64,000 nt of DNA from Heliocidaris erythrogramma (Eukaryota; Echinodermata; Echinoidea; Camarodonta; Echinometridae): positions 28,905,410 through 28,969,409 of the forward strand of contig CM046873.1 in the NCBI GenBank assembly GCA_025617745.1. The letters run 5' to 3'. Within the stretch, counting starts at the first letter, position 1. Each line of letters begins with the position of its first letter. The position numbers and the translations under genes were made by a program. Shown one piece after another: positions 33,095-63,721 of this stretch. The notes under the pieces were generated by a model that was not told where the DNA came from, ran no database searches, and worked only from the letters and a program-made list of their open reading frames with translations.

Positions 33095-34412
33095 TATCCC
33101 CCGAGTTCGGGAATACTATGGATTTGGCATCGTCGCGCCGCTTTCGCAGAGATTTTCTTGTGAGCGCTCTACTGGCTGCAGTTGGATCACCTTCAAATTT
33201 CGCATGGAGGTGCATTATGGTAAGATGAAGACGCCTATTGTTTTTGGTGTGGGCGGAGTCGACAGTGTTGCCATGGTAACCATATTTTTTAAAGAAATGG
33301 TAAAGATTTTCTTGTAAGCGCTCTACCGGCTGCAGTTTTTGTCGGATCATCTTCATATTTTGCATGGAGGTGCATTATGGTAAGATGAAGACGCCTATTG
33401 TTTTTGGTGTGGTGGAGTCGACAGTGTTGCCATGGTTACCATATTTTTTAAAGAAATGGTAAAGATTTTCTTGTGAGCGCTCTACCGGCTGCAGTTCTTG
33501 TCGGATCACCTTCAAATTTCGCATGGAGGTGCATTATGATAAGATGAAGGCGCCCATTGTGTTTGGTGTGGACGGAGTCGACATTGTTGCCATGGTAACC
33601 ATATTTTTTAAAGACCTCAGCCTGACCCAAAACAACCATATATTGACGTAAAGCTTAGTAAACAAAGAATATAATTACCCTGGGTATTCATAAATTTTCG
33701 TCTCCGTTTATCCATAAAAAATAAAAAAGATAATTTTTTTTGGTCCGCCCCCTCCCTATTGCGTAACAAGAGAGGAAACTGCAGGGGGTCGCTAGACGTG
33801 TGACGACATGTCATGTATACAGCTCCGAGTGCGTCTACACGATATGTCGTCATCAAATTTTCACCCCCGCAAAGTAGCGTTCCTCAGAGACGGGGCCCTC
33901 GTCAGAAAAACCACCGGGGCTCAACATTAGGGACGCTGTTACTCATTCCACAGGAAACGGAATCTCATGAAGTTGGTTTCAATTTGTTCAGAAAATATAT
34001 AGCTCCCCGTGGATGAATAAAGTGTATAAATTCGGTCAGGCTGAGGTCTTTAAAGAAATGTTAAAGATTTTCTTGTGAGCGCTCTACCGGCTGCAGTTTT
34101 TGTCGGATCATCTTCATATTTTGCATGGAGGTGCATTATGGTAAGATGAAGACGCCTATTGTTTTTGGTGTGGTGGAGTCATCGTTGCCATGGTAACCAT
34201 ATTTTTTAAAGAAATAGTAAAGACTTTCTTGTGAGCGCTCTACCGGCTGCAGTTTTTGTCGGATCACCTTCAATTTCAAAACAGCTAAAAAATGAAAACA
34301 ACAAAAAGGTCAAATTTGTCAGGAGTGATACCCGAGGTCCCAAATTGCCATTTTATCCATTTCAGTCACAACATTGATTCAAATGGGGGATGGGTGACGG
34401 GTTCGGGGGATA
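33095..34412. mobile_element. 160-bp tandem monomers inside inverted TATCCCCCGA ends
   Basis: TATCCCCCGA at 33095-33104 is inverted at 34403-34412. Between them a monomer with GCGCTCTACCGGCTGCAGTT and GCATGGAGGTGCATTATGG repeats at intervals of 160 and 159 bp (33202, 33362, 33521), resumes at 34123 after an insertion, and ends near 34290. The same arrangement, array within TATCCCCCG ends, is found at 36762-40824. This suggests a non-autonomous element whose interior is a variable-number tandem repeat. Open frames here run through the monomers and are not treated as genes. Confidence 0.65.
33613..34048. mobile_element. 436-bp MITE inserted in the 160-bp array
   Basis: GACCTCAGCCTGACC at the left end is exactly inverted at the right end. 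TTTAAA flanks both sides (33607-33612, 34049-34054). Monomer markers across the insertion are 602 bp apart; subtracting 436 plus 6 leaves 160, exactly one period. This proves the boundaries and a 6-bp duplication (or a TTAA target within it). The interior has poly-A/T and GACGACATGTCATG...ATATGTCGTC, no gene. Confidence 0.9.
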
Positions 34413-34639
34413 CATGTACTCGGACTGGTCCCCCCTCCGAGTGCTCTAGTTATTGTTACTATTATTATCATTACTATTATTATCATCGTTATTACGTACT
34501 TTCAAAATCACCTTGGATACTGGCTTGTATAAAGGGCCACAATAATAGGCTACTCAAGGACACTTTTTTCATGTATCAATGAATATCTTTAACCCTTAAA
34601 CATACTTTTACATTTAACCTCTTAAATGGTAAATAATAG
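34413..34639. other. Short gene-free stretch with (TTATTA)-type run
   Basis: Contains TTACTATTATTATCATTACT near 34456-34475. No gene. Confidence 0.4.
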
Positions 34640-35230
34640 CTCAAATCAGTTTACGTGAGGAAATTTGCGGCCATTTTGCATGCCATCTTGGATTTCCAGG
34701 TTTTCTAGTCTATATATGGATATCTGGACCCCCAAACCTAGGTGGAGACACCAAAGTTACACCTCTGGGATTGATATTTCTTGATTATGGCTATTTTTAG
34801 GCACTGGCGGACATTTTGGATGGATAATGGCGGTCATATCTTAGATACCGTCTTGAATATAAAGCTACTGTATACTTTATAAAATAATTTCGCATTTGTC
34901 ACTGAACATCCTGTCCTGATCTTAATTATTTCATCTCCACTGTAAAAAATATTCTACTTCCGATCGATTTTAGAAAAATTGAGGCCATTTTAGACGCTTT
35001 CTTGCATTGCCAGGTTTCATGACCGCCATAACACATTATAAGTGGTCTGAATAAATTTCTCGACCCCTCAAACCTAGGTATAGACATTAAAATTACGTCT
35101 ATAGGACAGATATGTCATGATCTAAGGCCATTTTTAGGTACCAGCAATCATCTTGGACGCCATTTTGAAAATAACCACTTTCCGGAGGTCTGATATTCTT
35201 AGATTTTCAGTGTGTTGTTCCTGAAGTCAA
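34640..35230. repeat. Two diverged units, right arm of fold-back
   Basis: CCCCCAAACCTAGGTGGAGAC near 34728 and CCCCTCAAACCTAGGTATAGAC near 35063 mark two units about 335 bp apart, inverted relative to 31000-31660. Confidence 0.55.
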
Positions 35231-35301
35231 ACACTATTGAAAACCGTTAAAAACCTTCTTGTTGCAATTCTTTGGAGTTTGGGGTACTTTTATTTACACT
35301 A

Positions 35302-36630
35302 ATTGCATTACTTAAAAATGAAAACTGGTGTCATAAATTAATTCCTCGTCAAGAAAACCCAAGAAAAAAATTGTATTACTTATGTTTTCAGGTTTTTGCG
35401 ATAAACAATGACAACGAAATCCATATATTGCACATATATGCTAATTAGCTCACTATGCTAATTATGCTATTTACTCTAATTGCATTACTTAAAAAAGAAA
35501 ACTGGTGTCATAATGAATTCCTCATCATGGAGAACCCAAGAAAAGTTATGTTTTCAGGCTTTCTGGATAAACAATGACAAAGAAGTCCATAGGTCATATG
35601 CTAATTACCTAATTATGCTAATTATGCTATTTACGACAATTGCATTACTTATAATTAAAAATTGGTGTCATAAATAAATTCCTCATCATGGAAAACCCTT
35701 GAAAAGTTGTATTATTTAAGATTTCAGGCTTTCTGGATAAACAATGACAAATAATTAAATATATTGTCATATGCTAATTAACTTATTATGCTAATTATGC
35801 TATTTACGACAATTGCATAACTTAAAATGGAAAATTGGTGTCATAAATGAATTCCTCGTCATAGAAACCCTAGAAGAGTTGTATTATTTATGTTTTCAGA
35901 CTTTCTTGCTTAAAGGGAAATTAACCTCAGCGTATGAATTAGCTTATTTTGAATGGTGTAGTATATGCCTCTTATTTGATACATGCAATTTCATGTAAAA
36001 ACACAGGATATAGATATAAATCACTATTTTCCAGCCAAGTTATTGTCTGCTAGCAATAATAAGGGGGCTGCCATTACTTTATGTGTACACGAAAATATTT
36101 TTCATCCCAAGTAATATTTCCTTCATCGTTAACTTGTAATTGATTTTTAGAGGACAAATATATATTAGATATAGTCACATATTCTGAAATGTAAGTTTAG
36201 TTTTATATATTTTTTAAAAGGTCTTAATTTGTTCATAAAAATATACTTTCTGTACGTGGAGACGGAGAATTGACGTCAAGGACGGAGACAATCGTAACAA
36301 TACCAAAACAAAGCGAGGAATCTGCATTACAGGATGGCTATTAGAACTCATGGGTCGTCAATTATCTAGGCCCATGGCCAATAACAATCGTAATAAAATC
36401 AGAACAAAGCGACGTATCTGTTGTAAAGGTAGGCTATTATCAATGCATATGGTACCTAATGATCCGTGTCATGCACAAAATGGCAGCCTCCATGGAAAGA
36501 CGTAGCAGACAATACCGCATCTAGAATATCATGTGGGGTTAATTGTCCTTTAAGATTAGCAACATATTAAATATTGCACGTATGCTAATTAGATGGTTAT
36601 GCTAATTAGGCTAAATTTTTAAAAATGCTC
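35302..36630. repeat. About 170-bp tandem repeat, interrupted by a TTAA element
   Basis: ATTGCATTACTT-type markers occur at 35302, 35479, 35639 and 35812. Each unit carries AAACTGGTGTCATAA, a TTTTCAGGCTTTCTGG phrase and GCTAATTA repeats. Removing the TTAA element (636 bp plus 4 bp) puts the next unit at the expected distance near 36612. Confidence 0.75.
35910..36553 (-). mobile_element. TTAA-flanked non-autonomous element, copy 2
   Basis: Inverted copy of the element at 4375-5028. TTAA lies at 35910-35913 and 36550-36553; the body is 636 bp. Matching landmarks include TTAACCTCAGCGTATGAATT, GGGGGCTGCCATTACTTTAT and GTTATTGGCCATGGGCC read in the opposite sense. Non-coding. Confidence 0.8.
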
Positions 36631-37499
36631 AAGGTTGCCAAGGTGGCAACCAAGTTGAATTTACTTCAATACCCATCTAGAACACAAATCAACAACAAAA
36701 CCTTGTACTTGACAACTTTTACGGTCATGTACATGATATATGGTACCGTCTACTGGACTATTGTATCCCCCGGCAGTATGCAGTCATATTTCTCGACGGT
36801 TTTCTTTCAAACTTTGTATGGAGGTGCATCTTGGTAAAATCTGGACACCTATAATTTGTGGTGATGCTGCCCCCAGTGTTTCGTCTTTTATAGGGTAAAA
36901 GGCCATATTTTGGGGGATAGTTTGTGTGCGCTCTAGCGGACACATTTCTCAACGGAGTTTGTTCAAATTTTGCATGAAGGTGTCTCTTGGTATAATCTAG
37001 AAACCTATAGATCTTGGTGATGCTGCATCCAGTGTTCCGTCTTTTATAGGGTCAAAGGTCATATTTTGATAGATGTCTTGTGTGGACTCTTGTGTGCGCT
37101 CTGTCGGTCACATTTCTCAACGGATTTCGTTCAAATTTTGCATGAAGGTGTCTCTTGGTGTAATCTAAAAACCTATAATTTTGCGTGATGCTGCCACCAG
37201 TGTCCCGTCTTTTATAGGGTCAAAGGTCATACTTCAGGGCATGGCGTGAGTGCACTCCACAGAACTCCAAAAGACGTAGAAGGCTCATACCCATTCACAA
37301 CGCACAGATCGCCGTATCGCCGTAATACCCGGTGTAGGATTCGCTCGAGTGCACACGCCGCCATGTTGCTTAGTCCTCGATCTTTTCAACTAACCCACCA
37401 GACCGTGTGCTTCTCAATGCTTATTTATATTATATCGGATCTTCTTTATCGAAATAAAGGGCCTTGCGCCTTTATCACTTGAAATTTTGAAGTTGGCTT

Positions 37500-38940
37500 T
37501 TCCACTGAAGTTCAGCTGCTCTTTCATACATAAGTAACGTCAACTAATATAATGTAGGCCTACATTTTAGGGGGAAGGGGTCTCTTTCGGACAAAAAGAC
37601 GGTTAAAATTGTATATTCTCTCAAATTCAACTAATATCAAACAGTTGTTTTTTTTATCACTATTATCATTTTAGTTCCCTTTCAAGAAAGCAGTCCGAGT
37701 TCGTTTGTTCACCTTCAAAGGCCATATATATAAAGGCCAACAACTTTGTTGTTTTTTCGCACTGTTTTATTTCTGCATTTTTCATAAGTACAAAGTAAAG
37801 TATATTCAGAATCATAATAACATAATATACATAATCTACGTAATAAACATAATATAATTACTTTTGACAAACAGATAAAAATTTACTTGATCGTTTAACA
37901 AAATAAAATTTTATGCTAAGGAGAGTGAAATGATGCAGGAGACCGACATCGTAAGCATAAGCTCGAGATGATGACGGCCTCGGGATAGGAAATGAAAGAA
38001 GAAAAATAAAAGAAAGAGAAGAGAAAGAAGGATGAATATGATTTGAAGGGTAATGTGCAGGTGGCCGTGCAATATGTGAAATGAGTGATTGCACAAAGCC
38101 TCTGCTTAATTTGAAATTTAATTTGATGCCTCAATAAATGGTTAATTTTTGTCTAACAATATTAAATAGTAACTTTAATTGCTGTATTAATTAATTTTTG
38201 TAATGGCTTTAAAAGAAAAAAGTGAAGCCCGTAACTTAAGCGAATCAGGTATAGGAGTTCCATATGTCGGGGCCGTGATGCCTCTTTGATTTTTTGAATT
38301 AAGGATGTGTTCAACATACTCTGCCATGTATATTTTTATCTTTGATGATAATCCTTATATAAGTCAGGACTTTATCGATGAATTGTGGATTAATCAGATT
38401 GGCAGGGGAACGGGGAGGGGGTAAGTCTGGAGCCCTCCTCCCACTTTCTGAGTAGACGCATTGCTTAGCCGCCGCTTGAATCAATTTTTATTCAACTGGT
38501 TTTTTTCTAACTTTGAAGGAACGTTTGTATTTTTACAAGCCAGGCTCAAGATTCTCCTTTCATTGTATTTCTTTTTTTTATTAATCATGCCCCTTCACTA
38601 TATGAGTGTCAAGATAAAATCCAGCAGATTTTGAGTGTGTCTAATAGATATTAAGAAACAGATGAATACGATGATGTGCTTATTGTTTACAGTCAGAATT
38701 CACTGCTCCCGGATCATCTCAATTAAAGTTGGTCCTTACCATCCATGGAATATCATTTGACAATGTTTGTAATTTCTATAATTTAGTAACCTACATGGGG
38801 AAAAAAATCATTAATATCCATGACTATGCTGTTTGTTTTACATGTATAATAATCAAAGATAGATGTATCTGCAACTGTGCAAATAACTTTGGCATAAAAC
38901 TGGACATTGGCACATGCAGCAAAGGCATCAAAAGCATAAT
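37500..38940. other. Interior of the 3-kb element, no gene
   Basis: AT-rich DNA. The minus-strand frames at 37858-38134 are low-complexity Ser/Phe/Leu-rich strings over a GA-rich stretch, not genes. Confidence 0.35.
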
Positions 38941-38949
38941 CATCATAGC

Positions 38950-39170
38950 ATTGGCGGATCCGTGCCCCCCCCCCCCTCCCTTTGGAAGAAAAGTATGCAT
39001 TTTGACCACAGAGGATCCCTTTTGTGGATTGTGCCCCCCCCCCCCCTTTTAGAATGAAAACTTTTTTTTTTTTTTTTTTTGCTTGTCAGAGAATTATGGA
39101 GGGAAACTGGACCCCTATACACCCCCCCCCCCCTAACTTGGGCGAATTTTGGAGGTCTGGCGATTTTTTT
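38950..39170 (+). repeat. Poly-C family dispersed repeat
   Basis: Has the full set of family blocks: TTGGCGGATCCGTG, poly-C, TTTGGAAGAAAAGTATGCAT, poly-C, TTTTGCTTGTCAGAGAATTA, GGAAACTGGACCCC, poly-C, GCGAATTTTGGAGGTCTGGC. It is the best copy for defining a consensus. Confidence 0.7.
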
Positions 39171-39429
39171 TTTTTGTCGAATTAGAATTGTAATGACTTT
39201 ATTTTTGTAAAATTTGAATTTTAATGATTAATGATTAAGTGGTAGTCCTCTCCGAAAGCTACCTTTTGTTTCCAATTTGGCAGTCGTGACTTGTGACACT
39301 TCGTTGGACTTGATGTATTTTTAATGTTCTTATTTAGAGTGACAACCTTCAACAAAACACAGATGCCTGGATCATAACAGTGATCTGTAAAGTCAAGACA
39401 AAGAATTTTCTTGAGGGCTATATATTGCA

Positions 39430-39705
39430 ACAGTGGCGCATCCAGGGGGTGGCGCAACAGGCGCCCCCCCCCCCCCATTGGCCGTCGTAAAAAAAAAATA
39501 GCCCCCAAAAAAATTTGTTCATTAAATAGGCTTCAAAATTGGTCACATATAGGATTATTTTGCATCTCAACCCTTCTTCAGAAGCAAAAATTTTCCAAAG
39601 GGGTCACCCCCTCCCATTAGACCCCTCCCCCAGGACGGCGATCAATAATGCCTGGCGCCCCCCCCCCCCCCCCCTATTGGCAAATCCTGGATACGCCCCT
39701 GTTGC
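39430..39705. repeat. Poly-C repeat with inverted ends
   Basis: CAGTGGCGCATCCAGGG at the left and CCTGGATACGCCCCTG at the right are imperfect inverted repeats. Two runs of 14-17 C lie just inside. Non-coding. Confidence 0.55.
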
Positions 39706-40824
39706 AACGTACTGAAATGAGCATACCTCATATCGAACTCTTACAAGCATGAAGTCTTGCATCAGGATATGAATACAATAACATAAATTTCCACTTTCAT
39801 TTGCCAGAACCATGAGAATCATTTCAGTGATCAAAGTTGTTTGAAATGGTAAGTAAATGTAGTGCAGTAAAATTTTCAAAATGAGCAACAAGAGTGGATG
39901 ATGACTGTATTTCTATAATAACAAATAAGCATGAAAATGCCCAAAACAACATTTTATAACACTGGCAATTTCATGTATTTCGAGAGAAACTTCCCTCTCT
40001 TTTTGTCTTGGTTCATTTGGATAATAGCATTAACAAAATCTAGCAATTTCAGTAAGATTTCATTTAACCCTAGTGTTGATCAAACAATTTGTACTGAATG
40101 AATGCCGTTGACGCGACGAGCTTCATGAATCCGGGCCGGAGCTGGAGAGCGAAGGACTAACCAACATGGCGGATATCACGTGATCACGTACGAACAATGC
40201 CTACAATTTCGCACCCGCACGAGCCTTCTACGTCTTTAGGAGTTCTGTGGTGCACTCTGTAGGCCACATTTCTGGATGAATTTCTTTCAAATTTTGTATG
40301 GAGATGTATCTTGATATAATCTACACGTCTTTACTTTTTGGTGATGCTGCCCTCATTGTTCCGTCCTTTATAGGGTCAAAGGTCATTTGTCCATTTCGTG
40401 CACTCTTCTGCATTTCTTGACTGATTTTGTTCAAATTTTGCATGAAGGTGTCTCTTGGTGTAATCTAAACACCTATCATGAGTTTTTGGTCATGCTGCCC
40501 TCATTGTTCCGTCCTTTATAGGGTCAAAGGTCATTTGTCCATTTCTTGCACTCTTCTGCATTTCTTGACAGATTAATTTTGTATGGAAGTGTATCTTGGT
40601 AATATCTACGCACCTACAGTTTTTGGTGATGCTGCCCCCAGTGTTCCGTCTTTCATAGGGTCAAAAGTCATAATATTTTAGTGGATATCTTGTGTGCGCT
40701 TGCTCCTAGTGTTGACAATAGTCTGGGCAACTGGCGGCAATCTCTACACCATCCTTTTGTTTGAGGGAGGGGAGGGGAGGTTCTTTGTCCCTCCTTCGAA
40801 TCGCTGCCAGTGCCGGGGGATACA

Positions 40825-41655: not shown

Positions 41656-42523
41656 ATGGCAAACCGCACGACTAGGCAAGCCACAAAGGACCGGACCGCT
41701 ATCACCCATCACGCCCTATCCGCTCGCTCGGATACCAGTCCGAGGTCTGATGCCAGACCTGCCGATCTTACTTTATCAGATATTCAGCAGAGTATTATCA
41801 ACTCTTCAGCTACCCTAAATGCCAAGCTTGATTCACTTACAAGAGAGTTTGCAGTCATCACAAACAAAGTTACAGATTTAGAGAATTCTGTTTCAATGAA
41901 TTCTGACAAGTTAGTCGAAATAGAGCACCGAAAGCTTCCCGACATAGAAAGCAAGATGGCCGACGAAATCTCCAAACTTCAAGACAAAGCTGACTCTTAT
42001 GGAAATTCATGGTCGTCGCACAAATCTTCTTTTCTACGGAGTGATGGAACCTCAAAATGAAGTCATCATGCACACGCTTCGCGACACGTTCACCTACCTT
42101 GGCATCGACGCTGACGACGCCGCTAATATCGCCATAGTGAACGCCCATCGCCTTCCCCGTCGCGACAACCTAGCACCAGATCAGGCCAGCGGACCACCGG
42201 CCCCGCGTGCCATCATCGCGAAATTTGTCTACATGCATGACAGAAATAGAGTTCTCGCCGCATTCGATGAGCGTCAACGCCAGCGCCAACCGCAAACATC
42301 CAACGCTGCCGACGGGCCTGCTCCGGACCAGCAAACCCGAAGGATCACAGTCCGCACCGACCTTCCACCGGCTCTGAAAGCCACAAGAAGCACTCTCGCC
42401 AAAATTGCCTACACTGTACGAAAAGAAAAAAACGTGTCCACAAAAATATCTGTAAATGGAACCAAAGTGTTACTTCACTGGAAAGAAAAGGGTACCACAA
42501 ACTGGAATCTTCACCGAGATTAG
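41656..42523 (+). pseudogene. LINE ORF1-type protein remnant (coiled coil plus RRM-like), frameshifted
   Basis: ATG at 41656 opens a basic N-terminus, then a heptad-rich segment (LNAKLDSLTREFAVITNK, VTDLENSVSMNSDKLVEIE), a coiled coil as in L1/Tx1-type ORF1 proteins. Near 42000 the frame changes; in the new frame GRRTNLLFYGV resembles the start of the RRM-like domain, followed by IVNAHRLPRR and a basic C-terminal domain with APRAIIAKFVYMHDRNRVL. Stop at 42521-42523. Intact relatives are RNA-binding chaperones that coat LINE RNA. No endonuclease or reverse transcriptase follows, and a repeat starts 70 bp downstream, so this is a broken, truncated copy. Confidence 0.6.
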
Positions 42524-42591: not shown

Positions 42592-42882
42592 TTAAAGGAG
42601 AATTATGCTCAAAAATAAAGACGATAGTGTTCAAAGGTGTATGGCTTCGCGTCAAAATATACGAGATCGATACAAATCAAATTTTTCTGAGCAAAATTTA
42701 CCATCTGCTAGCAATATGTATCGTCTGCTAGCAGCACATGGGGGCTGCCATTTTGTTTATGTGTACAAGAAAAATTTCTTAATCCTAATGCTCAATTGCC
42801 TTTTTCAAAATTAAAAACCCATTTGAGATTAAAAATATAGAATAGATATGTCAATTTATTTTTAAACTGAAGATTTCCTTAG
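42592..42882 (+). repeat. Dispersed repeat fragment, target of the DIRS insertion
   Basis: TTTAAAGGAGAATTA at the start and GGGGGCTGCCATTTTG near 42743 are shared with 59737 onward and, more distantly, with the TTAA-flanked elements. The fragment is cut at 42882 by the DIRS element. What followed it probably continues at 48693. Confidence 0.4.
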
Positions 42883-42898
42883 ATATCTACTTCCTTTC

Positions 42899-43063
42899 GC
42901 TTCACTTACCTATCCAATAACAAGTGCCATTATTCTTTGCCAGAAGAATTCCCTCGGCTATTAAAAAATTGACCTTTTGACCCTGGCAGCCCTGCTAGCC
43001 ACCTGGGAAACCCCGCACACTCGCGCTATAAGAATCCCCACATGTTATAAAACATCCTCTTTC
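42899..43063 (+). repeat. DIRS left inverted terminal repeat (165 bp)
   Basis: Runs from GCTTCACTTACCTATCCAAT to AACATCCTCTTTC and equals the reverse complement of 48489-48653 with no difference seen. The outermost 16 bp of the element (42883-42898) are unique to this side and reappear in the internal complementary region. Confidence 0.95.
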
Positions 43064-43227
43064 TTTGCCGACGTGCCTTCACGTTCATTACAGTGATTCC
43101 CTCGCGAGTTTTTTCTGGAATTTATTGGACTGTTACAAGGATTATTTACACTACCTTTGCAAGAAATCCTTCGTAATTTCAGCTAAGTAGACCTTTCTTG
43201 TTTCTAGTTTTCTTCTTAGTCGTAATT

Positions 43228-45258
43228 ATGACGAAAGAAAACCTAACTTTAGCCGAGGCGCTCGATCAAGCCTCCTCTTCTTCCCGTTCGGCGCCGCGGT
43301 CGAACAGCAGCAGTGGAGGGAGAAAGCGGCCGTCCCAGCCCGGCGCTAACCCTCCGAAGGTTCCCCCTCCGAAAAAGACTAAAACGGGGGCTAAACCCAA
43401 AAACAAAAGCGAGGTCGATGGTAAACTGTCTACCACCTCCAAACATAAGTCCGATAGCCTGCTCGAGGTTGATGGTTCTAAAAAAATAACCACCTCCATA
43501 GCTAAGGCTAGTGTTCAGCAGTCCGAGGTCGTGGGTGATAACAACACCCCCTCCGGCTCTGAGGCTCAGTCCCGAGTTACGGGACGTCAATCGTTAGAAC
43601 CCGAGCTCCCATCGGGAGCTCCGCAACGTGTAGTACCGGGCGTGGGTCCCGCTCTCGGGGCCCCGAGCTCGTCTCTTCCTGATTCCGCGGAGGCCTGCAA
43701 CTTCTTTTTTCAGGCCATGTCAGCTTTCGCTCAACAATTCTCCGGAACCCTCCCTGCTCGGGCAGGGGATACGACAGGTTCGGGGAACTCTTATGTTTTT
43801 TCAGCTACGCAGACCCTACCCGCAATCGCGGGTGATTCGACAGGTCCCCGTAGCTCTTCAGCACCGCATACCGTCTCGCGCCCCCCGCCAGACTCGCCGG
43901 AACGGGAGGACCTCCCCGCTCGGCAGGGGACGGTTCCCGCTGGTGGTAGGGAAGACTCCCTCCCCGCCAGGAAATCTCGGGATTGCTCTCGTCGTACCGA
44001 TAAGCCCCGTTACCGTGAATCGGCTGATCTTGGGGGTCGGTCACATCCTGCTCCCGCTTCTATTCATTTAACCGAAGTGTCTGATGAGGAGCTTGGTTAT
44101 CATCAGCCCCAATTGGCATCACGTGCGAATAAATGGGGCGATGAGGGGGAAAGCTTTTCCCTGTATTCTGTGTCCGCTAGATCGGAGAATTTTGGGAGTG
44201 TTAGAAGTTCTCAGTCACAAGAATCCACCCCAACCGAATACGAGCAGCGGACTCCCAACAAAGAGATTTTATCAGCGGCCGACTTGGTAATAAAATACTG
44301 CCCTCAACTAAAGTCTCAGTCGACCTCTCGTGGTGAGGATAACGAAACACAGCCTATATTTTGCATAGACTCAGAGTTGAAGTCTCCTGCTCAGAAGGGA
44401 AGTGCGGTGAAACTGGATGCCCCCTTCTCATCATGTTATAATAACTTAGCTGGCCGTTCTTACCATCTCCGTCCGTACCGCAAGGAGGTGCAAGCGGGCT
44501 ATAGATTCGACAGCGGAGATTATGAAAAAATTTTTAGCACTCCGCGTATACCCGAGTCTGCTTTTCGCGTGGTAGACGCCCGCTCTCGGAAGAGCAAATT
44601 CAATCCAATGAGGAATCGCTCGTTCAAAAAGTCAGAAGATCGTCTGACATTCATTGATAGGGCAGCTCGCTCTTCTATGCGTCTGGCTGCGTACCAGAGT
44701 TATTTGATTACGGCTCTGCGCGAATCAGACCGCCTAGCTATTTCGGCAGAAGACCGAAAGAAGATCTCAGATTTGCTGCTTCGCACTTCTGATATGCAGT
44801 TTGAACAGGCTTCTCGTACGGCCCTACTTTGCACTAACCATCGCCGAGATAGAGTGTTAGAACATCTTAAGCTTGAGAAAGAAGCGGATAAGGCTCTAAG
44901 AGAGCTTCCCCTTTCTGGACCGGATATTTTCTCGGGCAGACTCCAGGCCGTCCTGGACGAAAACATTTCGGCCTCGAGCACAGCCGCCAAAACGGTGTAT
45001 AAACTCACCAAAGATGACCGTCATTCCCGCCAGTCGCCTCGGGACAAACAATTTCAGTCGGGTCCCTTTCGAGATGATAGAAAGTCTAGGGACTTCTCGA
45101 GACCTCCCCCACCCGATCAAGTGTTCGGTCGCTCTTACGAGGCCCCCAGAGGGGGAAAAAGGGGATTTGCCAGAAGGCAGACCGATAAATCCCGGGGCCA
45201 AAACTTGGGCCCCACCAACAAGAACCAGGTCCCGCGGGACTACCCCTATCATTCCTGA
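43228..45258 (+). CDS. DIRS gag-like protein
   Basis: The first ATG of the frame is at 43228 (676 residues); a longer version would need a TTG start. The N-terminal half is Ser/Pro/Lys-rich and low in complexity. From about residue 410 the sequence is more ordered and resembles the conserved part of DIRS gag proteins, including RPYRKEVQAGYRFDSGDY, RNRSFKKSEDRLTFIDRAAR and a helical LERLKLEKEADKAL-like stretch (HLKLEKEADKALREL). No zinc knuckle is seen, as usual for DIRS gag. It should package element RNA. It overlaps the RT frame by 245 nt in another phase. Confidence 0.8.
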   Translation: MTKENLTLAEALDQASSSSRSAPRSNSSSGGRKRPSQPGANPPKVPPPKKTKTGAKPKNKSEVDGKLSTTSKHKSDSLLEVDGSKKITTSIAKASVQQSEVVGDNNTPSGSEAQSRVTGRQSLEPELPSGAPQRVVPGVGPALGAPSSSLPDSAEACNFFFQAMSAFAQQFSGTLPARAGDTTGSGNSYVFSATQTLPAIAGDSTGPRSSSAPHTVSRPPPDSPEREDLPARQGTVPAGGREDSLPARKSRDCSRRTDKPRYRESADLGGRSHPAPASIHLTEVSDEELGYHQPQLASRANKWGDEGESFSLYSVSARSENFGSVRSSQSQESTPTEYEQRTPNKEILSAADLVIKYCPQLKSQSTSRGEDNETQPIFCIDSELKSPAQKGSAVKLDAPFSSCYNNLAGRSYHLRPYRKEVQAGYRFDSGDYEKIFSTPRIPESAFRVVDARSRKSKFNPMRNRSFKKSEDRLTFIDRAARSSMRLAAYQSYLITALRESDRLAISAEDRKKISDLLLRTSDMQFEQASRTALLCTNHRRDRVLEHLKLEKEADKALRELPLSGPDIFSGRLQAVLDENISASSTAAKTVYKLTKDDRHSRQSPRDKQFQSGPFRDDRKSRDFSRPPPPDQVFGRSYEAPRGGKRGFARRQTDKSRGQNLGPTNKNQVPRDYPYHS

Positions 45259-47311
45259 CTATCAATACCCCAAAACAGGGCATCCCCCAGTCGGGGGCAG
45301 ACTGCAAAAATTTGCCCACCAATGGACACAAGTCACATCAGACAAAATGATTCTATCAATAATTCAGAAAGGCTATGTTCCCCTCGTAAGGTTAAAATTT
45401 CTACCAAAATTGCACAACAGAACAAAATTACCTCTTCATCCTCAAAAGAGAAAGGCCTTGCTAGAGGAAATAAATGCACTACTATGCAAGAAGGCCATAG
45501 TACGAGTTCCCGAAGGGAGAAATGTGATTCTCTCGCCAGTGTTCCTAACCCCCAAAAGGACTGGAGGTTTCCGCATGGTTCTAAATCTCAAAAGACTAAA
45601 CCAGTACATAGCAAACTCTACCTTCAAAATGGAAAACCTAGCCACCATTCTTCCCCTCCTCAAACCAAACGAATGGGCTGCTACATTGGACTTAAAGGAC
45701 GCTTACTTGCACGTCCCTATTGCTCACTCGGCTCAACACCTGTTCGGGTTTGCCGTAGGAAACGAAGTGTATCAATACCGGGCTCTACCATTCGGACTAA
45801 ACTCGGCCCCACGCATTTTCACGCGTATCGTGCAGGTCATCGCCTCACACTTACGAGAAAGAGGCATCAAAATATTTGTTTATCTGGACGACTGGCTATT
45901 AGTGGCGGACTCCGAACACAACCTACGTCGTCACATAGACATGACAATAGAACTGGTCACAAGGTTGGGGTTTATAATAAATTTCGAGAAGTCTCATCTA
46001 ACCCCTTCCCAACATCCAGAATTTCTAGGCGCAAAGCTGGATCTCCGGTACCAGCTTGCTCGTCCCCTCGCCCACAGGGTGGACAGGATAAAGCAGGTAG
46101 GACTGTCCATTCTCGACAGACCAAGGTCGACAGCCCTTATTTGGCTTCAGTTCCTAGGGTATCTAGCGAGTCTTTTAGACACAGTTCCCAATTGCCAACG
46201 GAAGATGAGAATGATACAATTGGGGCTCCTCAGTCAATATCGTCCCCACAGGGATCCTGTACACAAACTCATCTTTCTGACAGATTCGATGGCGGAAGCT
46301 CTCCGAGTTTGGCTCAATCCCCATCATTTTCAGGTAGGAAAACAGTTTGTCAATCCAACTCCTTCTCTGGTTATTTACACAGACGCATCGAACCAGGGTT
46401 GGGGTGCAGTGTTGGGTACAGAGATGATTCAAGGTTGTTGGAAGGGAGAGGAAAAGTCCTTCCACATCAATATTCTGGAAATGCTGGCAGTTCGTTATGC
46501 CCTGCTCGGGTTCAAGGACAAGATTCAGGGTCAGGTGGTGTTGATAAGATCGGACAATCTTACGGTGGTCTCTTATCTAAACAGGCAAGGGGGAACAAGG
46601 TCAAGAAGTTTGTGCATTTTGACCTTAGAGATCCTGGAGTGGTGCGATTCCATCCAAACCAGATTAATTGCGTCTCACATCCCCGGGAAGGACAACTACA
46701 TTGCGGATTTCCTCTCCAGGGGGAGTTGCCTACCATCGGAATGGCAACTGGACCCAGTGGTCGCGAACCTCATATTCAGCAGGTACGGTCCCCCACAGGT
46801 CGACTTGTTTGCGTCGGCCCTGAATACACAACTACCGGTTTATTGCACGAACCACAAAGATCCGGCAGCCCTGGCCATGGATGCTCTTTCGATATCATGG
46901 AGAAACATCCTCGGCTATGCTTTCCCCCCCTTTGTAATGATTCCCAAGGTGCTTCAGAAAGTGATGAGGGACGAAGCGAACCTCTTGCTGGTGGCCCCTT
47001 GGTGGCCCAAACGCCCTTGGTTCCCGACTCTGACGAGTCTCCTGATTCATCCCCCGGTAGTTCTCCCGGACGAAGCAGATCTTCTGCGGCAACCGGGGAC
47101 GACGATCTACCATCCAAATCTTCCCAGCCTAAAATTGACGTTATGGATCATTTCAGGTCAATGGCGACTCAGGCAGGCCTTTCTAGCAGAGCTGCCGATC
47201 TCTCAGCGAAATTCCTCAGACAATCAACGAGGAATACTTATGACTCTAGACTACAATACTACGTCAGATGGTGCAACGACCACCAAGTTGATCCGACCTC
47301 TGCTCCTCTAG
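45014..47311 (+). CDS. DIRS reverse transcriptase / RNase H / adenine methyltransferase-like protein
   Basis: 765 codons from the ATG at 45014, inside the end of gag; conserved sequence begins only near residue 96, so the true start may be later. Reverse transcriptase: GGFRMVLNLKRLN (about 184-196), ATLDLKDAYLHVP (about 223-235), LPFGLNSAP (about 258) and the catalytic FVYLDDWLLVA (about 288-298). RNase H: YTDASNQGWGA (about 455), LEMLAVRYAL (about 488), RSDNLTVVSYLNRQ (about 512), DNYIADFLSR (about 560). The C-terminal part (about 595-680), with VDLFASALNTQLPVYCTN, YAFPPFVMIPKVL and LLLVAPWWPKRPWF, matches the Dam/phage N6-adenine methyltransferase-like domain of DIRS elements. AFPP stands where active enzymes have NPPY or DPPY, so catalysis is doubtful. 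It overlaps the recombinase frame by 169 nt. Confidence 0.9.
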   Translation: MTVIPASRLGTNNFSRVPFEMIESLGTSRDLPHPIKCSVALTRPPEGEKGDLPEGRPINPGAKTWAPPTRTRSRGTTPIIPDYQYPKTGHPPVGGRLQKFAHQWTQVTSDKMILSIIQKGYVPLVRLKFLPKLHNRTKLPLHPQKRKALLEEINALLCKKAIVRVPEGRNVILSPVFLTPKRTGGFRMVLNLKRLNQYIANSTFKMENLATILPLLKPNEWAATLDLKDAYLHVPIAHSAQHLFGFAVGNEVYQYRALPFGLNSAPRIFTRIVQVIASHLRERGIKIFVYLDDWLLVADSEHNLRRHIDMTIELVTRLGFIINFEKSHLTPSQHPEFLGAKLDLRYQLARPLAHRVDRIKQVGLSILDRPRSTALIWLQFLGYLASLLDTVPNCQRKMRMIQLGLLSQYRPHRDPVHKLIFLTDSMAEALRVWLNPHHFQVGKQFVNPTPSLVIYTDASNQGWGAVLGTEMIQGCWKGEEKSFHINILEMLAVRYALLGFKDKIQGQVVLIRSDNLTVVSYLNRQGGTRSRSLCILTLEILEWCDSIQTRLIASHIPGKDNYIADFLSRGSCLPSEWQLDPVVANLIFSRYGPPQVDLFASALNTQLPVYCTNHKDPAALAMDALSISWRNILGYAFPPFVMIPKVLQKVMRDEANLLLVAPWWPKRPWFPTLTSLLIHPPVVLPDEADLLRQPGTTIYHPNLPSLKLTLWIISGQWRLRQAFLAELPISQRNSSDNQRGILMTLDYNTTSDGATTTKLIRPLLL

Positions 47312-48174
47312 GGGAGATAGCAGACTTTTTGATTCATCTGTTTGATAAGAACCTAGCCATATCTACGATTCGAGGCTACAGGTCCGCTATTTCAGCCATC
47401 CATGAAGGTAAATTTCAGGATGGAGAAACGCTGAGCTCTTCCAAGTACCTCTCTAGGCTCGTAAAATCTTTGTTCCTTTCTAAACCCCCTCAGGCTAGGT
47501 TGAGCCCGTCTTGGGGTTTGTCACGGGTGTTGCGTGCTTTAGCTAAAGCTCCCTTTGAACCGATGGACGCTAGTTCTCTGATGAACCTAACAGTGAAGAC
47601 TGTATTTCTGTTGGCAGTAGCTTCTGGAAGGAGGCGTAGTTTCCTCCATGCATTGACAGTAAGTCCTGGCCATATCCGTTGGGAAAAACATGGTGTTAGA
47701 CTTATCCCTCACGCTAAGTTTGTGGCTAAAAATCAAACTATGACTTCGTCCCCTGGTGAAGTGTTCATTCCTTCGCTCAAGTCTTTCTCATCGATTGAGC
47801 AAGACAAGTTGTGGTGCCCTGTAAGGGCGTTGAAGTGGTATATTCATAGAACCCAGGCAATTCGTAGATCGGAGCAACTCTTTGTCAGCATTCCTGCTCC
47901 TCATGGAGCTGTTTCACCAGACACCATTTCTCGCTGGATTGTTCAAGCGATTAGGTCTGGGGGAGATTCCACCCTTCTCTCTCAGGTTCGTGCCCATGAT
48001 ACGAGAGGGGTGGCTTCCTCTTGGGCCCTGTTCCAGGGGGTTCCCCTCGAGGATATTTTGAAAGCGGCCTATTGGCATAACCCCAATACTTTCACTTCCT
48101 TTTACCTATCTGATGTTATGTCTAAGGAAGCTGCTTTTGCATCAGCTGTCCTTTCCTGCCCTAATAGAAAGTGA
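47143..48174 (+). CDS. DIRS tyrosine recombinase
   Basis: The frame is open from far upstream, but recombinase-like sequence begins at the in-frame ATG at 47143, giving 343 residues. An N-terminal core-binding domain (RNTYDSRLQYYVRWC, then ISTIRGYRSAISAIHEG) precedes the catalytic domain. The usual R-H-R-Y set is present: Arg in VASGRRRSFLHAL (about 163-165), HDTR (His 285, Arg 288), WH at 311-312 and the nucleophile Tyr 321 in TFTSFYLSDV. The length is normal for the family. It would integrate the circular DNA copy of the element by site-specific crossover at the ATAT core. Translation probably relies on frameshifting or reinitiation from the RT frame. Confidence 0.9.
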   Translation: MDHFRSMATQAGLSSRAADLSAKFLRQSTRNTYDSRLQYYVRWCNDHQVDPTSAPLGEIADFLIHLFDKNLAISTIRGYRSAISAIHEGKFQDGETLSSSKYLSRLVKSLFLSKPPQARLSPSWGLSRVLRALAKAPFEPMDASSLMNLTVKTVFLLAVASGRRRSFLHALTVSPGHIRWEKHGVRLIPHAKFVAKNQTMTSSPGEVFIPSLKSFSSIEQDKLWCPVRALKWYIHRTQAIRRSEQLFVSIPAPHGAVSPDTISRWIVQAIRSGGDSTLLSQVRAHDTRGVASSWALFQGVPLEDILKAAYWHNPNTFTSFYLSDVMSKEAAFASAVLSCPNRK

Positions 48175-48337
48175 CTGGTGCTTTGACTTCTCCGCTGCCC
48201 TGGTAGCCCCCTTTTTTTTTTCGTACGTTTTGTTGGTTCGGTAGAGACCTTCTTGTGGTTCATGGGTCTGTCTTCCGTCCTGAAGTTGAGTACGTATGTT
48301 GTGCCGCAGTCCCTCCGCCATATTGTCTGTTGGAATC

Positions 48338-48434
48338 TGGCACTTGTTATTGGATAGGTAAGTGAAGCGAAAGGAAGTAGATATGTATGTTCAGTAGTGA
48401 ACATTTTATCTACGAGTGAGCTTCACTTACCTAT
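48338..48434 (+). repeat. DIRS internal complementary region
   Basis: The first part (48338-48384) is the reverse complement of the element's left extremity, including 16 bp beyond the inverted repeat. The second part (48381-48434) is the reverse complement of its right extremity, including 39 bp beyond the repeat. They meet at ATAT (48381-48384). In DIRS replication this region templates the joining of both cDNA ends into a circle (family knowledge). Confidence 0.93.
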
Positions 48435-48488
48435 GGGACCCCTCCCTCCTTCCCCACTCTGCGGCATTTTATCTGCTATGCCGGCTCC

Positions 48489-48653
48489 GAAAGAGGATGT
48501 TTTATAACATGTGGGGATTCTTATAGCGCGAGTGTGCGGGGTTTCCCAGGTGGCTAGCAGGGCTGCCAGGGTCAAAAGGTCAATTTTTTAATAGCCGAGG
48601 GAATTCTTCTGGCAAAGAATAATGGCACTTGTTATTGGATAGGTAAGTGAAGC
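48489..48653 (+). repeat. DIRS right inverted terminal repeat (165 bp)
   Basis: Reverse complement of 42899-43063, identical as read. The element continues for 39 bp to ATAT at 48692. Confidence 0.95.
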
Positions 48654-48668
48654 TCACTCGTAGATAAA

Positions 48669-48686
48669 ATGTTCACTACTGAACAT
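48669..48686. promoter_or_regulatory. Possible recombinase-binding inverted repeat
   Basis: ATGTTCACTACTGAACAT consists of two 7-bp inverted arms around CTAC, two bases from the ATAT crossover core. The same motif is repeated in the internal complementary region at 48387-48404. Placement next to the junction suggests a half-site for the tyrosine recombinase (inference). Confidence 0.4.
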
Positions 48687-48950
48687 ACATATTTCTGTTG
48701 AAAATCGATATTCGCTTAATAAAAATCTATTTTCTCGATACTGTGACGTATGGGACGGAGCAAATTCATTCAAATTTCATGGATGCTTCTTCCCTGAGCA
48801 TCTATAGCGGCAAACTATGCATTCACCTGCTTTCGGATAATGGACCTGAAAAGTCAGAATGCATGCTGCATATATTATGTTCTGCTCTGTTTGGCAAACC
48901 CAAGAAAATAAATTTTTGTTAAGCAAAACCAGACAATTTAAAAGTATCAT

Positions 48951-49118: not shown

Positions 49119-49626
49119 GCCAATAGGCAGATTAAGAGTTTGCAAATTACTTTGTTCATCGTATTCGCAAAGTGTGCGACAATTCTTTGTTCGATCTTAA
49201 ATATTTTCCTTGGCATGCCGTGGTCAAAAGCATTGATCAAGGGGTTCTTTTATTCCTTTTGTCTTTTTATAGTTACAAGTACAACATTCACAGATCTGAA
49301 ATGGTGTGTACAATTTGTGTTTCAACGTGCCAAATGTGCACTCTTTATTGTTGTAGTCACCATCACCATGTCCATAATAAGCCAAATTCTTGATTTTTTA
49401 AGGTTAAAAAGTAATAATTGCTCAGCTGGTATTTTTGTTAAACGAACTAGATACATGTATATGTACTTTTATACGTGTAGTCTCTTGTATGACATTTTTT
49501 TCCGGAGAAGTCAGAATCACTTCTGCACGTATTCTTTGGTCATGTATTTGCATATCACCTGCTTGTCGATTTCTTATTCAGCGTTCTTTTTATTCAATGC
49601 CTACAGTAAATCTCCTTGCCGGAATG
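49119..49626. other. No supported gene; possibly LINE 5' region
   Basis: Open frames here have no domain and a Phe/Cys/Ile-rich composition typical of AT-rich non-coding DNA. It may belong to the 5' end of the LINE that follows. Confidence 0.3.
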
Positions 49627-52600
49627 TCTCTGTTCTCTATGATGAATAATGTATTTAACATGAATGATATTCGTGATACCGCAACAAATTTTAACTTTAC
49701 GAATGGAGAAGAAGGTGACAACTCAGACATAACTACATTCCTTAATTCAACAACTCCTCAACTACAGCTTGAATTCGATTCTAATGAGGTTCTTCCTCAG
49801 CAATTGTTTACTAATTATCGTTTGGAAAAAGAGATTACGTCATTATCCCATTCAAATCCAAACCTACTCTTTGCATCACATTATAATATTAGGAGTCTCA
49901 GCAAAAATTTTGATCAGTTCCAGTTATTCATTAACGATTTAAAATTTAGTCACGGAGTCATTGGTATTTGTGAAACCTGGCTCAATGAAACGTCACCTTC
50001 TTCTCTATTTGATATTCATGGTTACAGACTTATAACACTTATAACTAGTAACAGGTGAAATAAAAGGGGAGGTGGGGTTGGTTTTTATGTCACCAAAAAT
50101 TTGAATTGTGAGGTGTTAGTTGAATTTAACCTATGTCTGAAGTTATTGAAAATATTTTTATTGAAATCAAAGTTCCAAACAAAGGTAATTTAATCGTTGG
50201 TGAAGTATATAGACCACCCAAATCGAACCCTACTGAGTTTATTGAATCACTCCATACCCTTTTATCAGAGAAATATTTTGAAAATAAGATGTGTATTATA
50301 ATGGGCGACTTTAATCTTAATATTTTAAAATGTCTAGATAACCATAACTGCCGTGATTTCCTCAATCTGATGTTGTCTAAATCTTATGTTCCTCTTATCA
50401 GGAAACCTACACGTTTATCTGATGTTACAAGTACACTTATTGACAATATTTTTGTAAATAATATATCTTCTCTAGTCACTTCTGGTATAATGGTGTCTGA
50501 TGTTTCTGACCATTATCCCATTTATGCTCTCATATCTTCATTAACGATAAATAATTGTGATCGTTCGCATACTTCTAGTATTCGTGTCATGTCGGAAACA
50601 AACCTCAATAAACTTAGGGAGAGATTAAGATATGTTGATTGGTCACCTGTTTACAGTCAAACTGATGTAAATATCTCCTATGAAAATTTTATTCATTTAT
50701 TAACATCTAGTTTCAATTCAACCATACCTCTTCAGAAATCAACATTTTCCAACCACAAAAAGATTCCCCAAAATCCTTGGATCACGAAATCTCTCCTTAG
50801 GTCTATTAATAGAAAAAATAAACTCTTCTATAAACATAGGAAAAATCCGAATGCTCGAAACAGGGCTCAATATGTTCGTTACCGAAATGTTCTGACATCG
50901 TCTTTACGTTTAGCTAAACAATTGTATTTCTCACGCCAGTTTGAAAAATACAAATTCGATATAAAGAGTACGTGGAAGGTGATAAACGAAGCTTTGAAAT
51001 AAAAAAATGATACCGATCCTCCCAAGTATATTCTTAAAAATAATCGCAAATATGATGATCCCTCAGACTTGGCTGAGGTATTCAATGACTTTTTTGTAAA
51101 TATAGGACCAAATCTTGCCAGTAATATCCCAAAGTCAAATTTAGAGTTTCACAACTTTCTAAAAGCTCCTAACCCCCAGTCTCTTTTTTTCACACCAGTA
51201 GTAGAGGATGAAATCAAAGATATTATAACCAATCTCAATACGAGGAAGGGTTCAGGATATGATGGAATTACAAACTTCCTTCTTAAAAATATTATTGAGG
51301 AAATAACTTCCCCTCTTACATTTATTTTGAATTTGTCTTTGACCACGGGTGCAGTCCCACAAAATATGAAGATAGCTAGAGTCGTCCCTATTTTCAAAAA
51401 AGGACAAAAAGAATCCCTGAATAATTACCGTCCGATTTCTCTTTTAACATCCATTTCAAAAATCCTCGAAAGGTTAGTATACTCCCGAACACTCAATTTC
51501 TTTGTTAATAGCAAAATTCTATGTGACTCTCAGTTTGGTTTTCGAAAGAATCACAGTACTTCTCATGCTTTATTGGCTTTCATAAACAAAATAGCCCACG
51601 CAATTGATAACGTTTCGCACACTATTGGGGTTTTTCTAGATTTTTCAAAGGCCTTTGACACGATTAACCACGATATTTTAATTTACAAGTTGCGTCACTA
51701 TGGTGTACGTGGATTGCCTCTAGATTGGTTCATAGACTATCTAACTAATAGAAAACAGTTTGTCAGTGTCAACGGCCATGATTCTCACTTGAAATTGGTT
51801 ACATGTGGCGTCCTGCAAGGTTCCCTACTGGGCCCGCTATTGTTTATTTTATATATTAATGATCTCAAAAATTGTTCCCAGCTACTTTCATTCATTTGTT
51901 TTGCGGATGATACTAATATATTCTTTACACATCGAGACACTCAAACTCTTGTGGACACTGTAAATAAAGAACTTGCGTCTGTTCAGTCCTGGATTTATGC
52001 AAACAAGTTATCCCTAAATATAGATAAAACTCTCTATATGCTATTTAGTAATACATTAAAAACACTTCCTAATCATGTCAATTTTAATAATACTGCACTA
52101 AAACAAGTTGACTGCACTAAATTTCTGGGACTTTATATTGATAGTGATCTATCCTGGAAATCCCATATTACTTATCTGAGTAAAGTCCTCTCGAGAAATA
52201 CCGGTATAGTTAACAGACTTAAACACTTCTTTCCCAGTAAAATTTTATTATCAGTTTATTCTACTTTAATGACTCCATACCTCAGCTATGCAATTCTCGC
52301 CTGGGGCAACGCTTGTGGATATTTGCTAAATATACTTGCTCACATTCAAAAACGTGCTATTAGAAATATTAATCATGTTGGATACCTGTCTCACACTAAC
52401 TACCTGTTCCATACAAACAAAATCCTAAAAGTATCAGACCTATTCTATTACAATGTGAGTATTTTTATGCATAATCTATCTGCTAATAACCTACCTGAAT
52501 ATATTTTTACAAATGTTTAAGAAAAACAGATCCCTACATGCTTATCCTACGCGACAGAGCAACGCATATCACCTTCCACGTACCAGAACTATTTTTGCCC

Positions 52601-60083: not shown

Positions 60084-60604
60084 CTCTTTCCTAGGCATAG
60101 TACAAGGCGAAAGTAGACGTGGATCTATGTGCATTATAATAATATTTAAGTACTAAATTTGGCCTAATCATTATTTCATTAGTATCCTCACACTTTTTTA
60201 ATATGACCATTTTAAGACTTATTTCAGCTTGTTAATGACATTATTCTTTTAGTTTCTTATTTCGTCGTGTGTGTTTTTTTTTTTTTGTGTGTGTTTGTTT
60301 TTTGACAGGCCACAGGTCAAACAATTCATCCGGCAGTCATCATATCAGCTAAAAAACGCTATATGACGGTTTTCGAATCGTACTGTCGGTGATCGGGAAT
60401 CGTGTCGTTTATGTGGTTTGAAATCAGTACAGGATTTTGAGATTTTCCAGACAACTTCAGAGAACTTAACGATAATTTATTATATCAGGAGTTAGAAAAA
60501 CATGAGCAACTTTAATATCACGGTACCCGAATGTACAAAGCCTTAGAATTGATGGGAGAGAGAAAGGACCAATCATCTGAATACCATAAAACGGAGTCAA
60601 CATT
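60084..60604 (+). promoter_or_regulatory. Upstream region of the ankyrin-repeat gene
   Basis: Contains a poly-T/TG run near 60270-60300 and an acceptor-like GATTTTCCAG near 60450, so the start codon exon may be preceded by a 5' exon. No TATA box stands in a convincing position. The sequence before the ATG (AACATT) has A at -3. Confidence 0.3.
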
Positions 60605-63600: not shown

Positions 63601-63721
63601 TGCCAAAGGACAGACCCCTATTTACTTATCATCCAAGAATGGTCATCAAAATATCACCGAGGTCTTCGCCGAACGTACAAAGGTATTTAGTTCATGTAAA
63701 GGCGTTCTTGAGTTCAGATAA
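60605..63721 (+). CDS. Large ankyrin-repeat protein (single long exon)
   Basis: The 1,038-codon frame starts at the ATG at 60605 (A at -3). From about residue 13 it is an unbroken series of about 31 ankyrin repeats of 33 residues, most with the consensus GWTALHLAAQNGHLDVTKYL and ISQGAEVNKEGN. Ankyrin repeats form a solenoid for protein binding; no enzyme domain, signal peptide or membrane segment is visible. Units 2-8 are nearly alike at DNA level, a sign of recent duplication, whereas residues about 475-573 (62027-62323) are three decayed units that have lost the TALH and GH motifs. The ORF ends TAA at 63719-63721, but AAAG|GTATTT near 63680 could be a donor, and no AATAAA follows, so further exons beyond the window are likely. 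The partner and pathway are unknown. Confidence 0.9.
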   Translation: MRNKKINTHVDDGRSELHKAAQAGSLNVVIDLINRGADVNKTDKVGWTALDLAAEKGHLDITKYLISQGAEVNKDENRCWTALHVAAQNGHYDVTKYLINKGAEVNKEGNDGWTALHLAAQNGHCDVTKYLISQGAEVNTEGNRCWPALHVAACNGHLDVTKYLISQGAEVNKEGNRCWTALHFAAQNGHCDVTKYLISKGAEVNKEANRDLTALHLAANNGHCDVTKYLINEGGEVNKEKYGGWTALHLAAQNGHVDITKCLISEGAEVNKATYKGWTALDLALAEGRVEISKCLIMSEAEVRNADAIHWPELLVAAETGDLHVMNDLVSQGAEIDEVGTFGWTALHIAASNGHLNIIQYLLSHGADVNSSDAFGVTALQKAAKYGHMEILKYLICNGAEVNKKNDEGCSALKFAAGRGHLDIVQYLVIQGSEVDNGNADGITALHYAVDGGSFDITEYLLGQGAELGRRDESKYVVFNFNVQYGHYDVSTCIRSEGGQFFRGPTDAFVLLNGATEIAHQDESTYLLKQGAYEDKNTVLGGMIMIYKPYTTCNLDVKDYLRSVREVSRTGGHSSLHCAVINGDLGMARFLLGRGADVNEGNTLGWTPLHFATQMGHLNVVEYLISQGAEVNKGNVDGITSLHVAAFSGHFGITNLLLSRGAEVSGVTNEKGSTALHVGVQNGHLDIIKSMLNQGADVNGTDNYGWTALHIAAQNGHIDVTKCLLRQYANMSKVTSKGSTALHLSAANGNFDVTIALVEHGAEVNTARSDGWTALQLAAEHGHLDVTGYLLTQGAEVNKGDRNYCSALHIAAVKGNLAVMGHLVKGGADVNKVTANRYTCLHLAALHGHDDVAAYLLSNGADVNKADKDGKTALHFAFQNGNHDIITLLISKGADSKCANAQGLTLLHVASAAGYVDDVKLLITNGASVNKGSDTGLTALHFAAKEGHLDMVKTLLHEGAILDARDGGKSTPLHHATVNGNLEVVKVLCEEGAMVDLRSAKGQTPIYLSSKNGHQNITEVFAERTKVFSSCKGVLEFR

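Follow-up and report, generated by a model that had tools for sequence, protein, structure and literature searches.

DIRS1-like retrotransposons, among them DIRS-1, SkoDIRS, AcaDIRS and XtDIRS, are described (PMC3266345) as having overlapping gag-like, reverse transcriptase (RT)/RNase H and recombinase frames, inverted terminal repeats, an internal complementary region (ICR) and a right extension (rE), and as producing no target duplication. The same source reports, for almost all described DIRS1-like elements, a 3-bp circular junction that is identical in the target; the right extension, for which its Table 3 gives values of 26 to 50 nucleotides (nt) in 20 animal elements, is published there but unexplained. 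A mechanism for DIRS was put forward in 1985 and in 2005, and as late as 2017 it was described as not yet fully proven (PMC5633606). Here, we analyzed a 64,000-nt stretch (the window) of the genome of the sea urchin Heliocidaris erythrogramma (GCA_025617745.1, contig CM046873.1, positions 28,905,410 to 28,969,409 of the forward strand), in which positions 42885-48690 are, judging from their sequence, almost certainly a complete DIRS1-like tyrosine-recombinase retrotransposon. It has RT/RNase H, a tyrosine recombinase, inverted repeats, an ICR and a right extension, and it produced no target duplication. Unlike almost all described elements, its family (family A) does not show strict 3-bp identity between junction and target, a property that we do not use to define DIRS1-like membership; we describe for it a half-site target and a junction that can fold. 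The element itself is ordinary for its kind, and its interest lies in its ends.

A close parallel to these ends is found in bacterial integrons, where one folded strand of the attC site recombines in its R box, replication resolves the product, and the terminal part of the site may be as small as 3 nt (PMC2727003, PMC4792948). Like the predicted DIRS junction, attC with its recombinase, IntI, presents two short stems, an unpaired spacer and a small terminal part, and exchange takes place at one point, which lies in the R box of either partner, the outer box of the folded strand and that of a double-stranded site. The DIRS junction is not an attC site; it belongs to a eukaryotic retroelement, comes without IntI, attI or cassettes, and resembles attC on paper. 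The attC-like order of R box, unpaired spacer, L box and terminal part is found in it as a prediction, which is weak for the family that we call L148 and for the outer stem of family E. A folded single strand is also the recombinase substrate in the attP(+) hairpin of CTX phage, which uses the host recombinases XerC and XerD and the dif site. Ngaro, PAT and Crypton are likewise mobile elements with a tyrosine recombinase. Cryptons are not known to have an RT. Ngaro has split direct repeats, unlike the window element (PMC9210276), and PAT differs in its repeats (PMC3266345).

Comparison with other copies of family A placed the ends of the element at 42885 and 48690. The original prediction, which was made from the letters of the window, had set them at 42883 and 48692; this is 2 nt too wide on each side, because the outermost bases vary among the copies and so belong to the target. 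The 165-bp inverted repeats that it had read as identical are so, with 0 mismatches (42899-43063 versus 48489-48653), whereas the ICR at 48338-48434 was missing from it. The features of the ends are as follows.

42885..43063, plus strand: left terminus, consisting of ATCTAC at 42885-42890 (outer right arm of the predicted folded junction) and the left inverted repeat at 42899-43063
48489..48653, plus strand: right inverted repeat, identical to the left one over 165 bp
48654..48690, plus strand: right extension, complementary only to the ICR
Parts of the right extension: outer left arm GTAGAT, 48660-48665; inner stem, 48669-48675/48680-48686; loop, 48676-48679; spacer ACAT, 48687-48690
48338..48434, unstranded: ICR, with 48338-48382 complementary to the left end and 48383-48434 to the right end; it encodes the circle junction
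48377..48413, minus strand: foldable circle junction, 37 nt, predicted to form an outer 6-bp stem, a 3/4-nt internal loop, an inner 7-bp stem and a 4-nt loop
48691..48696, plus strand: target half-site, here ATTTCT; family preference W-T-Y-t-A-c, from 64 distinct insertions
42810..42884, plus strand: left half of the empty site, within a young repeated element, probably, by eye, a long interspersed nuclear element (LINE)

A genome search for further copies, as suggested with the original prediction, was made with terminal patterns. The 58-base left-end pattern matched 82 places and the 67-base right-end pattern 80, and these matches are not due to chance, since the reversed control of each pattern gave 0. 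The ends pair into 76 copies with both ends, 26 of which measure 5,800-5,806 bp (6 left and 4 right ends remained unpaired and were left out), and the circle-junction sequence itself was matched at 77 places. Flanks were read for 68 of the 76 two-ended copies, and 64 distinct insertions were kept after 4 had been dropped as duplicated loci. All of the evidence presented here comes from this one assembly, in which several of the families compared below are known from one short stretch each.

In family A, the first base of the element is A in all 82 left ends and the base before it is variable, while the final T of the right-end ACAT is present in 79 of 80 right ends. The single right end that reads ACAA (L036, C3:11006565-11006654) also has A at -1 on its left, which may be a mutation or a mixed base. 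The first target base to the right is A in 31, T in 28, G in 4 and C in 1 of the 64 insertions. We found no excess of equal flanks among these insertions at any length from 1 to 8 bases, and target site duplication was rejected on this ground and because empty sites abut at the junction. For the insertion in the window, the joined flanks (42810-42884 plus 48691-48767, 152 nt) matched all 40 places scored, out of 677 candidates, at 98-99% over 149-151 bases; 37 of the 40 showed no length difference and 3 were one base shorter. This insertion neither duplicated nor removed any base. Among the fetched loci, further empty sites that abut at the junction were found for L049/L050, L101/L102, L113/L114, L115/L116 and L119/L120, and that of L020 gave a weaker, gapped match at 72%. 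In family E, for which the flanks of 12 fetched copies and of L145 were read out of 331 right ends, the first target base is A in 5, T in 5 and C in 3 of these 13. Its first element base is A in 98, T in one and G in one of the 100 left ends listed out of 303, a list that favors T at -1; no perfect match was obtained in this family with a pattern that has T at -1 and again at +1. Insertion thus attaches the left base A and the right-end ACAT to the target at exactly one point and neither duplicates nor deletes bases, and we are confident that what these insertions record is an exact one-point exchange with a half-site target.

The target preference is nearly confined to one side of this point. 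To the right, the 64 insertions favor W-T-Y-t-A-c, with T at +2 and a pyrimidine (C or T) at +3 in 60 each and A at +5 in 34, and to the left they favor solely T at -1 (40/64); binomial tests were made for +2, for +3 as C, for +5 and for -1. The right-flank preference resembles the element's own left end, ATCTAC. When flanks were scored over +1 to +6 against the left ends of three families (for family C, 8 fetched copies and L143, of 10), each family's flanks scored highest on their own, with mean matches of 3.38 for family A (n = 64), 3.62 for E (n = 13) and 4.00 for C (n = 9), as opposed to 1.66-2.12 for control stretches. At +3, the ratio of C to T is 39:21 in family A and 2:19 in families C and E combined (Fisher test, 9e-6). 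The target preference therefore differs among the three families, in each case toward the family's own left end. As a separate observation made by eye, one family A insertion (L115/L116) landed in sequence related to the D/E ends, where it sits at the margin of the matching arm.

The ICR spells out the two ends as joined in a circle, with the right end (...ACAT) directly before the left end (ATCTAC). The junction strand, GTAGAT-AAA-ATGTTCA-CTAC-TGAACAT-ACAT|ATCTAC, is predicted to form a nested hairpin, and in family A its DNA fold z scores are -6.6 (47 nt), -5.5 (37 nt) and -5.3 (a fixed 62-nt window). We distinguish two layouts. In layout 1 (families A, D and E), the 37-nt arrangement is kept while its letters differ, and the exchange point coincides with the boundary between the spacer and the outer arm, at the base of the outer right arm. 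Layout 2 (families B, C, L146, L148, L149 and L150) has a longer loop, and the exchange point falls within or at the outer right arm. Paired positions make up 97.4% of the cells in layout 1 and 92.1% in layout 2, versus 23-44% and 35-47%, respectively, when slid. Changes on both sides of a pair were seen in 4 of 13 pairs in layout 1 and in 6 of 17 in layout 2; within the inner stem they affect 3 of 7 and 6 of 10 pairs, respectively. The letters of the outer stem differ between the layouts yet pair in both. Eight of the nine families fold better than at least 96% of their shuffles, and fixed windows that were not trimmed to the arms gave similar but weaker results. Since several coding 62-mers of the element fold more strongly than the junction in absolute terms, the junction was judged by shuffles and covariation alone. 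From these comparisons, the hairpin, and above all its inner stem, is very likely to have been conserved by selection, and we consider it somewhat probable that the predicted hairpin is the recombination site. A published description of a DIRS junction hairpin was not found in search listings, which cover few subscription journals.

A number of results weigh against this interpretation. In the outer stem, a single pair of layout 1 has changed on both sides and no pair of layout 2 has, and further pair types are no more numerous than in shuffles (64 of 500 reach the count in layout 1 and 236 of 500 in layout 2). The L148 junction folds no better than its shuffles (348/1000; 64/300 in the fixed window), and L149 is weak in the fixed window, where 26 of 300 shuffles are as good. 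In family E, which outnumbers the other two families counted by pattern, a C/A mismatch occurs in the outer stem, and this stem is absent from the fold of lowest energy. The absolute fold energy of the junction is unremarkable beside the GC-rich coding parts of the element, and the structures were drawn from the same sequences that were used to test them. In layout 2, the exchange point is ambiguous within ATT. No junction was seen by eye in L147 and L151, two of seven fetched stretches. The preference of family C for its own left end is narrow, as its nine flanks score 3.67 on the left end of family E against 4.00 on their own. As for the enzyme, a model of the recombinase from sequence only was too poor to use (predicted local distance difference test [pLDDT] score of 38), and phmmer found no solved relative of it at E values up to 1. 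Apart from these points, L152, another of the seven stretches, repeats family C by eye.

The best explanation that we can offer, to which as a whole we give an even chance, is that elements of the 42885-48690 type integrate from a folded strand. The recombinase would bind the two stems of a folded single cDNA strand as two half-sites, and the right extension would form the apical part, or tip, of the folded site. The strand would be cut at the base of its outer right arm, the cut arm would be joined to one strand at a target half-site that resembles it, and the second strand would be completed by replication or repair, as in integron attC insertion. Single-strand exchange, an inferred step in this scheme, has in our estimate slightly less than an even chance, and it is more tentatively that we suggest that DIRS retrotransposons may integrate like integron cassettes, with a folded cDNA strand whose hairpin would be built from the right extension and the left end, exchange of one strand at a genomic half-site and replication for the second. 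In the duplex form of the junction, the outer arms would lie 25 nt or more apart, whereas recombinase sites typically have a spacer of 6-8 bp (PMC4792948); in folded layout 1 the outer and inner stems adjoin across the 3/4-nt unpaired spacer. One-strand exchange would explain why the ends carry no mixed bases (with L036 as one possible exception). Single-stranded DIRS-1 cDNA has reportedly been observed, by Malicki in 2020. If the proposed mechanism is true, the right extension gains a role, a route known from bacterial integrons is also at work in an animal retroelement, and eukaryotic retroelements can be counted among the users of single-strand integration by a tyrosine recombinase. Together, the 64 mapped insertions, the empty sites and the covarying hairpin single out a specific site and exchange point that can be tested, and for such tests this genome alone offers hundreds of natural insertions.

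The published model, in which a circle recombines with the genome through a 3-bp circular junction identical in the target, by exchange of two strands on double-stranded DNA, appears to us rather unlikely for these insertions. This model has been put forward for DIRS1-like elements (PMC3266345), experiments are said to have verified a circular DIRS-1 intermediate (PMC5633606), and the right flanks in layout 2 agree with it, in that ATT stands at +1 to +3 in 8 of 9 flanks in family C and in 3 of 3 in family B. Family A is harder to accommodate. The junction triplet TAT is found at -1 to +2 in 19 of its 64 targets and is missing in 45, and in 14 the target and the element have no base in common at the exchange point, so that a plain 3-bp identity rule was rejected for this family. 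Shared bases at the exchange point are nevertheless commoner in the 64 targets than in control flanks taken at displaced positions, which is what a half-site preference would lead one to expect. Moreover, if the exchange were staggered, one of the ends should show mixed bases; the 82 left ends have none at +1, and the 80 right ends include one possible case. Table 3 of PMC3266345 lists several elements whose start and end triplets differ (CTT/CAT, TTT/TGT, GTT/GAT and TTT/TAT), which, on our own reading, is expected if one base there is derived from the target.

It may be instead that the hairpin serves replication, by priming cDNA synthesis or by bridging the ends on the ICR, and that the target half-site is a separate preference of the recombinase; we consider this unlikely. 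Hairpins can prime DNA synthesis, which counts for such a role. So does the view that the ICR templates the missing ends (PMC5633606). A hairpin with that role alone leaves it a coincidence that both the exchange point and the target-like sequence fall at the outer right arm, and copying by fold-back would be expected to remove the unequal internal loop, yet all three layout-1 families retain it. That the hairpin is simply a by-product of inverted terminal repeats meeting at the circle junction seems very unlikely. The junction does lie between inverted repeats, which by themselves form a long stem (in an 85-nt fold), and the outer stem shows little covariation; the inner stem and the loop, however, belong to the right extension, beyond the repeats, and it is there that changes on both sides are found.

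The coding part of the element is made up of three frames.

43228..45258, plus strand: ORF1, gag-like, an open frame of 676 amino acids (aa) from the ATG at 43228, assigned to gag by position alone
45014..47311, plus strand: ORF2, 765 aa, with reverse transcriptase, RNase H and a putative methyltransferase (MT)-like tail
47143..48174, plus strand: ORF3, tyrosine recombinase, 343 aa from the ATG at 47143, in a frame open from 45259

That all three frames are open (676 aa for ORF1, 765 aa for ORF2 and 45259-48174 for the frame of ORF3), and that the copy is apparently intact, was correctly anticipated in the original prediction, as was the presence of the RT, RNase H and recombinase motifs. These are YLDD at 45881, YTDAS at 46376, RSDN at 46547, HDTRG at 47995 and, in ORF3, the C-terminal Y in YWHNPNTFTSFY at 48070, the residues of which we take to be catalytic. 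ORF2 matches the Pfam families RVT_1 (E value of 5.1e-25) and RT_RNaseH (1.8e-6), both over the cut-off, and its putative MT-like tail, suggested by VDLFAS, PPF and PWWPKRPWF at the expected place after RNase H, has no Pfam match. In ORF3, both Pfam matches fall below the cut-off (Phage_int_SAM_4 at 1.5e-5, 25.8 bits against 27; Phage_integrase at 0.002, 18.4 bits against 27.1). Five other family A copies pass the cut-off for Phage_int_SAM_4, and ORF3 itself was identified as an integrase by PHROGs (1.6e-10). ORF1 and three short flanking frames gave no Pfam match above the cut-off.

The element was also expected to be young, and this agrees with what we found: 12 full-length copies, including the one in the window, are 0.05-2.0% apart, the nearest of them differing from the window copy by 0.05% substitutions, and uninterrupted copies of the host repeat are 98-99% identical. 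The idea that a full-length DIRS copy is uncommon does not hold in this genome, where 76 family A copies have both ends and where 331 right and 303 left ends belong to family E. By 8-mer coverage, the window copy and 2 of 20 other copies fetched have all three frames open; 3 of these 20 had no right end in the fetched or aligned sequence. For a piece of RNase H/MT-like protein from a second DIRS family, a first look gave 6,444 candidates; the best 150 were scored and all matched, at 44-100% identity and with many groups of near-identical copies. Full-length DIRS copies that appear intact are therefore no rarity in this genome. Eight copies of family A extend over 9,252-12,070 bp, several kilobases over 5.8 kb, and so carry extra internal sequence; two of the over-long copies, on C4, have common flanks and are probably one duplicated locus.

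The insertion at 42885-48690 is a recent jump of the DIRS element into repeated sequence. The host repeat is probably a LINE, a reading made by eye and without a family match, because endonuclease-like and reverse transcriptase-like frames lie to the right of the element at 49408-52520. Together with a frame at 41656-42523, these look LINE-like by eye (endonuclease and reverse transcriptase) and appear to have been split by the DIRS insertion. Elsewhere in the window, four tandem arrays with units of 148-173 bp occupy 33150-40671, and one family A copy (L049/L050) sits in a repeat of like kind. Further to the right, an open frame of 1,043 aa with ankyrin-like repeats extends over 60590-63721 and includes a 99-bp tandem array at 60740-61419.

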